The notes beneath the pieces are model-generated. The model was not told where the DNA came from. It searched no databases and was given only the letters and a program-made list of their open reading frames with translations. Both the position numbers and the translations under genes were made by a program. Positions 25,953-48,132 of a DNA stretch of 64,000 nucleotides are shown here, piece by piece; the first letter of the stretch is position 1; each line of letters starts with the position of its first letter. Source of the stretch: Haloarcula sp. CBA1127 (GTDB lineage: Archaea > Halobacteriota > Halobacteria > Halobacteriales > Haloarculaceae); NCBI RefSeq assembly GCF_001485575.1, contig NZ_BCNB01000006.1:434001-498000 (forward strand), written 5' to 3'.

Positions 25953-26471
25953 ATGGCAAACTCGAACGCGAAGGGCGACCGCCGCGAGCGCGAACTGGTC
26001 AACGCACTCGACGAGGCGGGCTTTGCGGTGATGCGCGCGCCGGCAAGCGGCAGCGCGACCGAGCGGGAACTGCCGGACGTGCTCTCGGGCGACGGCGAGA
26101 CGTTCTACGCTATCGAGGCGAAATCCAGCGCCGGCGACCCCATCTATCTCACCGGTGAGGAGGTCGAGGCGCTGCTGTTTTTCGCCCGGAACTTCGGCGC
26201 GAAGCCACGTATCGGCGTCCGGTTCGACCGCGAGGACTGGTACTTCTTCCACCCGGCGGACCTCCACACGACCGACGGCGGCAACTACCGCGTGAAAAAG
26301 GAGAAAGCGCTCTCCGACGGGACTGACTTCGACGAGTTCGTGGGTAACTCCGAGAAGGTCACGCTGGATGAAGTGGGCGACGACGGCCCCGACCAGAGCG
26401 TACTGGACGTGCTGTCGGCCCTCGAGCGCGGCGACCTCGACAAAGAGGAAGCCGCAGCGATGCTGGAATAG
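25953..26471 (+). CDS. hjc: Holliday junction resolvase Hjc, 172 aa
   Basis: An archaeal PD-(D/E)XK resolvase that cuts four-way junctions symmetrically. The N-terminal [18 protein letters not shown] carries the Glu of motif [20 protein letters not shown] carries the Asp and E-x-K catalytic core, and [18 protein letters not shown] the following helix. An added C-terminal segment of about 45 residues ([26 protein letters not shown]) is common in haloarchaeal Hjc. A GTTTTAC box 29 nt before ATG 25953 indicates leaderless translation. Confidence 0.95.
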
Positions 26472-42475: not shown

Positions 42476-43426
42476 GTGCGGGAGTTCGACTTCGAACTGG
42501 CGCTGTGTGCCCATCTTGAGCGCGAGGGGCGGCTGGTGAGCCGGCAGCTCGGCGGCGCTGTCCACGGCCGGCGCGTCCTCGATACCGTTGTCGTCGAGCC
42601 GGGTCCTGAACTCGACGAGCGGGCGGCCATCACTCCCGAACGGCTGCCGACGGCGGCCATCGAAAGCGACGTTGGCCCGGGTCGGGCGCGGTACTGGAAG
42701 GACGCTTTCGACTGCCATCCCGACCGCGCCGAGCGGGCCGTCGAACTGGCGGTCGAGCGGGGCTTCTTCGAGCGCGAGCGTCGCGGCGGCCGAACGTACG
42801 TCCGACAGACGACGCGATATCCCGACTGGTTCGGCGAAATTGTCGCCATCGAGAACAAGCCGGACCTGGGTCGGCCCGGCGACCTAGAGACACAGTTACG
42901 GACCGACGTGTCGCTCGCGCTCGCCGACCGCGTCATACTGGCGACGGCCTCCTACGTGACCGGGGCGCACCTCAACCGGATTCCCGAGGAGGTCGGTGTC
43001 TGGCGGTTTGACGCCGACAGCGGAACGATGGACGTCCGTCGGGAGGCGACACCACTGCCGACCGACGACCCGGGCGTCGAACTCATCGAGGAGCGACCGG
43101 TCCGGACGGACGTGCGGATGGTCGGCGCTTCGGAGAAGGCCCGCGCGCGTCGGCAACTGGCCGAGCGAGCGTACGGCAAGGGGTGGCGGAGTTTCGACTA
43201 CCCGGCGTGTGAGCGCTGTTCACCCGGCAGTGACGGGATTCCGTACTGTCAGTGGAAGGACCGCGCTGTCCGCGAGAGCGACGACTGCGGCCCGGACTGC
43301 GGCGGATACGAGGCAGCCGACCCGCCGGCCGTCGACGGCGATTCGCTCCGGGCCGAGCGGACGCCGTGGCGGGCAGACCCCGACGGGCGCAGGCGTCGCC
43401 AGTCGGGACTGGATCGGTTCGGATAG
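42476..43426 (+). CDS. DUF5787 protein, possible iron-sulphur PD-(D/E)XK nuclease, 316 aa
   Basis: Starts at GTG 42476 (VREFDFELALC), 28 nt after a GCTTTTGC box, so leaderless. I recognise the DUF5787 family by its opening. Residues 116-128 read PDWFGEIVAIENK, which fits the PD-x(n)-E-x-K core of restriction-like nucleases. The helix DLETQLRTDVSLALADRV after it fits the QxxxY-type motif. Cys11 near the N-terminus and Cys245, 248, 258, 271, 275 near the C-terminus could form a cluster staple as in Cas4/AddB. The nuclease call is my inference; catalytic proof is lacking. Confidence 0.75.
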   Translation: MREFDFELALCAHLEREGRLVSRQLGGAVHGRRVLDTVVVEPGPELDERAAITPERLPTAAIESDVGPGRARYWKDAFDCHPDRAERAVELAVERGFFERERRGGRTYVRQTTRYPDWFGEIVAIENKPDLGRPGDLETQLRTDVSLALADRVILATASYVTGAHLNRIPEEVGVWRFDADSGTMDVRREATPLPTDDPGVELIEERPVRTDVRMVGASEKARARRQLAERAYGKGWRSFDYPACERCSPGSDGIPYCQWKDRAVRESDDCGPDCGGYEAADPPAVDGDSLRAERTPWRADPDGRRRRQSGLDRFG

Positions 43427-46524: not shown

Positions 46525-48132
46525 GTGGCAACTGATAACACATTAATCTCGGTGTATCGGAACCGCATCGGCGACCCGACGACCGACGACGAGGTCTACG
46601 GCTACTGGCTGTTCGTCATCGGCATCGTACTCGGAATCGTCGGCCTGCTTCTGTTTTACTTGACAGCGTCGCGGAGCACGCCCCGGCAGTTCGGCTATCT
46701 CCTCGGTGCGATTGGTCTCATCTCGCTGTTTGCGGGACCGACAATCAGACTGCCGCTGACACGACGTGGGCTGATACTCACATACCTCGGGGCTGTGGTC
46801 GGACTGGTCGCGATGGTGTGGTTCACCACGTTCTACCCCTCGAACTGGACCGGCCCGGAGGGGAACCCGGCAGTGACGCTGTATATCGTCGGCCTCGGGC
46901 TGATGGCTGTCGGGGCGGTCGTTTCGCCGTTGCTGACTGGGCGGAAAGAAGCGTACGATAAAGCCGTTCAAACGGCAGAGGACGCAACTGAAGTGGCCGA
47001 GCAAGCCACTCAGGAGGCCGACCGGGCGTCCCGGGAAGCGACACAGCAGTCCCAGGCCGCCGAACAGGCGAGCCACGAGCGCAACAGGCTGGCCGAGCAG
47101 TTAGCGACCAGCGAGGCCGCCCGCGAGGAACTGGCCACCGTGACCGAGGCGAGCGAGGCGGAACTCGCCGCGGCCCACGCCACCATCGCGGCTGCGATGG
47201 ACAGCAAGGCGACGTTCGAACTGTACGAAGACGCTGGGGGCAAGTACCGCTGGCGGCTCCGCCATCGGAACGCCAACGTCATCGCCGACAGCGCACAGGG
47301 GTATTCCTCGCGCCAGAAGGCGATGCAGGGGCTCCGCAGTGTGCAGTCCAACGCCGCCGGCGGTGCCGTCGTCTTCTTCGAGGACGCGACCGAGGACGAC
47401 ACCGCCGAGGACGTGCCGGTCGTGCCGGCCCCCGAGAGTGACGCCGCGTTCGAGGTTTTCGAGGACAATGCTGGAGAGTTCCGCTGGCGCTTGCGCCACG
47501 ACAACGGCAACATCCTCGCCGACAGTGGCGAGGGGTACGCCTCGAAGTCGAACGTCCGACGGGCGCTGCAGAGCGTCCGTGCGTACGTCCCCGGTGCGGC
47601 GTATCTCAAGATCGATCCCGTGGCATACGAAGTGTACGCCGACGCCGCCGGGGAGTTCCGCTGGCGCTTGCTCCACCGAAACGGCAACATCCTCGCCGAC
47701 GGTGGCGAGGGGTACAGTTCCCGGTCGAATGCCCGGCGGGCGGCCCGACGGGTGAGCGAACTCGCACCCGACTCCGAGGTCGACGACGGCTTCGAGGTGT
47801 ACGAGGACAAGGGCGAGGAGTGGCGCTGGCGGTTGCGTGCGGCCAACGGCGAACTCGTCGCCGACTCCGGCGAGGGGTACGCAAATCGATCGAAAGCCAT
47901 GGATGCCGTCGAGCGGGTCCAGTCATACGCGGCCGACGCCGACCTGCTGGAGATCGGGAGCGCAGCGTTCGAAGTGTACGAGGACAGGGGCGAGGAGTGG
48001 CGCTGGCGGCTCCGCCACCGCAACGGCGAGATCATCGCCGACTCCGGCGAGGGGTACGCCGAGCGCAACAAAGCCATCGCCGCCATCGAGCGGATCAAGC
48101 GCCATGCCCCCGGTGCAACACAGGAGGAGTAG
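46525..48132 (+). CDS. membrane protein with five tandem DUF1508 modules, 535 aa
   Basis: Four transmembrane helices lie in residues 28-135, followed by an Ala/Glu/Gln-rich coiled-coil (about 145-225). Then five copies of a roughly 49-residue module begin at 229, 307, 366, 421 and 480. Each has the pattern F-E-x-Y/F-E-D, Y/W-R-W-R-L, and A-D-S-x-x-G-Y-x-S/N, the DUF1508 (HVO_2922-type) signature. Linkers between modules vary and one is acidic. DUF1508 proteins are usually one or two modules. Role unknown. GTG 46525 is the start, 26 nt after a GTAATGTA box. Confidence 0.88.
   Translation: MATDNTLISVYRNRIGDPTTDDEVYGYWLFVIGIVLGIVGLLLFYLTASRSTPRQFGYLLGAIGLISLFAGPTIRLPLTRRGLILTYLGAVVGLVAMVWFTTFYPSNWTGPEGNPAVTLYIVGLGLMAVGAVVSPLLTGRKEAYDKAVQTAEDATEVAEQATQEADRASREATQQSQAAEQASHERNRLAEQLATSEAAREELATVTEASEAELAAAHATIAAAMDSKATFELYEDAGGKYRWRLRHRNANVIADSAQGYSSRQKAMQGLRSVQSNAAGGAVVFFEDATEDDTAEDVPVVPAPESDAAFEVFEDNAGEFRWRLRHDNGNILADSGEGYASKSNVRRALQSVRAYVPGAAYLKIDPVAYEVYADAAGEFRWRLLHRNGNILADGGEGYSSRSNARRAARRVSELAPDSEVDDGFEVYEDKGEEWRWRLRAANGELVADSGEGYANRSKAMDAVERVQSYAADADLLEIGSAAFEVYEDRGEEWRWRLRHRNGEIIADSGEGYAERNKAIAAIERIKRHAPGATQEE

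Follow-up and report, generated by a model that had tools for sequence, protein, structure and literature searches.

MmcB is described as a PD-(D/E)XK endonuclease that makes Caulobacter resistant to mitomycin C and to cisplatin (PMC9578287). The MmcB family (PF06319) provides both the best profile match and the best structural match of the family described here, DUF5787, which, unlike MmcB, is confined to haloarchaea. Other described PD-(D/E)XK nucleases are those of the Cas4/AddB/Dna2/Exo5 group, which like DUF5787 have one N-terminal and several C-terminal cysteines, and NucS/EndoMS (PF01939) and Hjc (PF01870), which are likewise present in haloarchaea and have no direct profile match to DUF5787. 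The window (the whole 64,000-nucleotide stretch of Haloarcula sp. CBA1127 DNA that was analysed) carries a DUF5787 gene, hereafter paralogue 1, on the forward strand at 42476–43426, with a GTG start at 42476 and a stop codon at 43424–43426. The reading frame, proposed in an earlier note made from the sequence, is real: it encodes 316 amino acids (pI 5.3, GC3 0.81), the product matches PF19100 (DUF5787) in a Pfam scan with an E-value of 1.2e-100, and the GTG start is shared at the same aligned position by 62 of 74 relatives. The annotation libraries searched give DUF5787 no function name, the literature search found neither a paper naming ‘DUF5787’ nor an experiment on the family, and sequence-HMM searches matched the protein to no solved structure and to no other nuclease family. 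We read DUF5787, with a probability of roughly 0.72, as PD-(D/E)XK phosphodiesterases, in all probability endonucleases that recognise particular DNA structures or DNA damage in housekeeping genome maintenance.

The AlphaFold2 model, built on 65 paralogue-1 sequences (pLDDT 88.8, pTM 0.84), comprises a helix (residues 3–16), two strands (20–26 and 34–42), an insertion (46–111), a third strand (119–127), a helix (137–147) and a fourth strand (152–157). The PD-(D/E)XK core order, alpha-beta-beta-beta-alpha-beta, is present, and a winged helix interrupts it between beta2 and beta3, giving alpha-beta-beta-[winged helix]-beta-alpha-beta. The N-terminal helix (window 42482–42523, forward strand, as for all features given here) carries the invariant Glu3, Glu7 and Glu15 and the nearly invariant Cys11 (codon 42506–42508). 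The beta1-beta2 hairpin (residues 20–42; 42533–42601) contains the probable catalytic Asp36 (codon 42581–42583). The winged-helix insertion (42611–42808) is formed by helices 59–63, 74–77 and 82–94 and a wing at 98–103/106–111, and its Foldseek matches in the PDB include SmtB (8qkf), MecI (1okr) and MarR (3s2w), with probabilities of 0.84–0.89. Strand beta3 (42830–42859) ends in Glu126-Asn127-Lys128, the E-x-K motif (codons 42851–42859), and is followed by helix 137–147 (42884–42916) with the invariant Gln140 and Asp144. Asp36 on beta2 and Glu126/Lys128 on beta3 thus occupy the positions of the Asp and the (D/E)-x-K of the PD-(D/E)XK motif.

The conservation set comprises 120 sequences of both paralogues (86 close relatives and 34 paralogues), in which 30 of the 316 positions are invariant. 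Among these are E3, E7, E15, R23, Q24, R33, D36, E126, N127, K128, Q140, D144 and D151, as well as C245, C258, C271 and C275. Being invariant across both paralogues, the E126-N127-K128 motif lies far beyond chance. The earlier note had placed the nuclease motif within PDWFGEIVAIENK (residues 116–128), taking its Pro-Asp pair as the source of the catalytic Asp and asking about the conservation of Glu126 and Lys128. The segment is where it was said to be, and both Glu126 and Lys128 are kept in 120 of 120 sequences, but Asp117 is Asp in only 106 of 120 (Glu, Asn, Gly or Ser in the rest) and lies outside the conserved register, misaligned with the MmcB motif. We therefore reject Asp117 as the catalytic residue; the Asp kept in every sequence is D36, which lies 90 residues upstream. 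The same invariance bears on the possibility that DUF5787 is a catalytically dead PD-(D/E)XK scaffold that regulates by binding DNA through its winged helix. Non-catalytic reuse is common among nuclease folds, and the winged helix does resemble ArsR/MarR/MecI regulators; the strict retention of D36, E126, K128 and Q140 in two anciently split paralogues is nevertheless hard to explain without catalysis, and we regard such a regulator as very improbable.

For the comparison with MmcB, the DUF5787 core profile consists of residues 1–45 and 112–200, with the winged helix excised, and the MmcB proteins come from plasmids and phages, the starting query being an MmcB-like sequence, with confirmation by PF06319. 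In hhalign, the core aligns to 14 MmcB sequences with a score of 30–31 (E 2–3e-4, probability 41–47%). None of 400 column shuffles reaches this score (maximum 25.6), the reversed profile scores 16, and six unrelated control families score at most 18.2 against MmcB; as yardsticks from the known superfamily, NucS scores 36.6 and Hjc 24.8 against MmcB, the NucS match being of about the same strength as that of DUF5787. A smaller set of seven MmcB sequences gives a score of about 27, and the increase with the deeper alignment is expected of true homology. Taken alone, the hhalign probability of about 45% is no more than suggestive. The alignment places D36 on the Asp of the MmcB R-x-A-D motif and ENK on EIK, and continues through beta4 (ADRVILATAS..IPEEVGVW in DUF5787 against CDRLFFATHA..FPEECGLM in MmcB). 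The two families therefore share the core order and register, with R-x(1-2)-D on beta2, E-x-K on beta3, a helix, and then (C/A)-D-R on beta4 and (I/F)PEE-x-G. In Pfam scans only DUF5787 exceeds the cut-off, with no PF06319, and because sequence-only HMM searches miss the MmcB link, the homology of the nuclease core to MmcB-like proteins (PF06319) is remote. A search of the PDB with the core profile lacking the insertion returned only chance matches to GlmU.

Structure comparison leads to the same family. With Foldseek against viral models, MmcB-like DNA repair proteins rank first (E 2.9e-4 and 1.2e-3, probability 1.00), whereas the matches in the PDB are marginal, the best being AF2093 of Archaeoglobus fulgidus (2ph7; E 6e-3, probability 0.92, low TM-score). 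The PD-(D/E)XK fold and the E-x-K motif proposed at the outset are supported by AlphaFold2, Foldseek, profile-profile comparison and invariance together. DUF5787 differs from MmcB in three respects: a winged-helix insertion about 65 residues long, absent from MmcB, lies between beta2 and beta3; the Gln140 motif stands where MmcB carries D-x-K-x3-Y; and a four-Cys C-terminal module is present, with no counterpart observed in the MmcB proteins that were retrieved.

The C-terminal module (43181–43351) contains the invariant GWR at 236–238, Cys245, Cys258, Cys271, Cys275 and Arg292. Folded alone, it reaches a pLDDT of 79 and a pTM of 0.50, where the full-length model has 0.84, and has no fold match in the PDB; it therefore probably packs on the nuclease core. 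The protein contains seven cysteines, at positions 11, 80, 245, 248, 258, 271 and 275, of which Cys80 was absent from the earlier note. That note listed Cys11 and five C-terminal cysteines, and all six are present; only four of the C-terminal ones are invariant, however, as position 248 holds Cys in 50 of the 86 close relatives and Phe throughout the 34 paralogues, and Cys11 is Cys in 117 of 120 sequences. The three exceptions (one Halorientalis marina paralogue-1 protein and two paralogue-2 proteins) have Ser at this position and keep the four C-terminal cysteines. With the C-terminal four invariant and Cys11 replaceable by Ser, the most economical interpretation is a metal site built from the C-terminal four, to which Cys11 would be near or auxiliary. 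A four-Cys site for Zn or Fe-S in this module is very likely from the pattern of invariance.

These cysteines had been proposed to form the [4Fe-4S] staple of a Cas4/AddB/Dna2/Exo5-type nuclease, built from Cys11 and three C-terminal cysteines. A PD-(D/E)XK core flanked by a nearly invariant Cys on the N-terminal helix and by clustered C-terminal cysteines is what such an enzyme would have, and the lower pTM of the isolated module agrees with its packing on that core. The comparison with Cas4 itself points elsewhere. The Cas4 profile scores 13 against DUF5787 (probability 0.1–0.2%), the level of the controls, and Foldseek against the PDB gives Cas4 SSO0001 a probability of 0.05, a non-match. 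With regard to AddB, Dna2 and Exo5, the Foldseek matches listed contain only RecE (3h4r, probability 0.03). The C-terminal motif of the archaeal Cas4 proteins fetched, C-x2-C-x5-C, is absent from DUF5787, whose spacing is C-x12..24-C-x11/12-C-x3(1)-C. Cas4 becomes insoluble when any of its four cysteines is missing (PMC3466216), whereas DUF5787 tolerates Ser in place of Cys11 and has a complete set of four without it. With a different core, no profile or fold match to Cas4, another Cys spacing and an N-terminal Cys that is not strictly kept, DUF5787 probably falls outside the Cas4/AddB iron-sulphur group; we reject homology to Cas4 on the profile score and Foldseek, and consider a staple of this type quite unlikely. 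Even among Cas4-like proteins this Cys site can carry Zn, as observed for DUF3799 (PDB 3L0A; PMC3466216).

PF19100 is found in 383 of 392 Halobacteriales genomes (343 of 345 high-quality ones), almost always in two copies per carrying genome, and the nine genomes that lack it all belong to three families (f38, f41 and f5). In the 393-genome phylum sample, no genome outside Halobacteriales passes the family cut-off. Two weak outsiders were judged chance matches, one being the Cys-rich region of a methionyl-tRNA synthetase-like ORF (G228) and the other an unrelated ORF (G134). A viral or mobile origin was rejected, as scans of viral contigs yielded no DUF5787 relative, and a defence role was rejected, as PADLOC gave no match. 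The second member in the Haloarcula genome lies elsewhere and shares 37% local identity with the first. A bipartition with full support (1.0) separates the two paralogues, whose mean identities are 62% and 67% within the groups and 34% between them, so the duplication is ancient. DUF5787 is a core haloarchaeal pair of anciently diverged paralogues with a conserved chromosomal place. Individual members vary outside the motifs. In three genomes of family f4 (G354, G339 and G162), paralogue 2 (L148, L149 and L150) skips profile positions ~191–211, losing the beta-hairpin before the C-terminal module and keeping all motifs. Paralogue 1 of G260 (L151) has a low-complexity insertion of about 60 residues after the conserved GVWR segment, and its catalytic and Cys residues are intact.

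About 60 of 80 relatives have paralogue 1 next to the aIF2gamma - PIN/FCF1 - rpoE1 cluster, and in 64 of 80 it faces a convergent metallo-beta-lactamase-fold gene. Since RNA nucleases are among the members of the PD-(D/E)XK superfamily, this neighbourhood could point to an enzyme of RNA processing instead of DNA repair. Transcription of paralogue 1, however, runs away from the cluster, and in some genera the two are separated by other genes. Paralogue 2 has a different location, where it converges on a DUF5797 HTH gene in 24 of 31 cases; moreover, among the matches found, those nearest to DUF5787 are DNA enzymes of the MmcB-like and NucS-like kinds. A role in RNA processing therefore appears unlikely. 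The neighbourhoods of both paralogues show no operon with CRISPR, helicase or defence genes and no conserved operon with a repair gene; for paralogue 1, the lack of a CRISPR or AddB context remarked on in the earlier note is supported by the relatives. An MmcB-like housekeeping repair role would fit the universal, chromosomal and vertically inherited distribution of the family.

Other nucleases are encoded in the same genome. A NurA-family (PF09376) protein lies at C6:3065161-3066078 (G000), and another is found in the Haloferax volcanii control, contrary to a review that reports NurA as absent from H. volcanii (PMC7776575). NurA-family proteins occur in nearly all sampled Halobacteriales, and we reject the idea that DUF5787 replaces an absent NurA. 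PDDEXK_1 (PF12705) matches two large neighbouring ORFs at C1:221942-226616 (frames of 1213 and 1064 aa, AddAB-like by size) and a separate 936-aa frame at C6:2130471-2131238, so the genome has RecB-like nucleases besides DUF5787. Within the window, a Hjc Holliday junction resolvase (PF01870, E 2.4e-32) is encoded at 25983–26258. The window also encodes, at 46525–48132, a 535-aa protein in which a membrane segment at the N terminus is combined with several DUF1508-like (YegP) repeats of the form FEVYED..GE.RWRLRH.NG..IADSGEGY.

Computation shows the fold of DUF5787, the register of its motif, the invariance, the two copies and the chromosomal place; catalysis, action on DNA, a repair role and the metal belong to the mechanism that we infer, in which DUF5787 is most likely an Mg2+-dependent endonuclease. 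Asp36 of beta2, together with Glu126 and Lys128 of beta3, would coordinate Mg2+ and orient the water molecule for attack, and Gln140 and Asp144 would support this centre. The winged helix, carried in the beta2-beta3 hairpin beside the active site, would grip nucleic acid and present DNA to D36/E126/K128, and the four invariant C-terminal cysteines may hold a metal of structural function (Zn or Fe-S), by which the C-terminal module would be fastened to the core. The presence of two ancient paralogues in nearly every haloarchaeon suggests that they probably have different substrates or act as a pair. A bolder version, in which this universal haloarchaeal pair of PD-(D/E)XK proteins with inserted winged helices carries a [4Fe-4S] cluster at an independently evolved C-terminal four-Cys site and serves a core, unrecognised DNA-damage pathway, seems to us rather unlikely.

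In sum, the best reading of DUF5787 is a new family of a known superfamily, distinctive in architecture and core to haloarchaea. A two-gene family without an assigned function, present in 383 of 392 sampled haloarchaeal genomes, gains a testable activity and named catalytic residues, and the architecture, with a predicted DNA-binding winged helix inside the catalytic hairpin, is unusual. Haloferax volcanii carries the family, which makes deletion and point-mutant tests possible. Haloarchaea are noted for their tolerance of radiation and desiccation, and DUF5787, if a repair nuclease, would be a lineage-specific addition to haloarchaeal genome maintenance.
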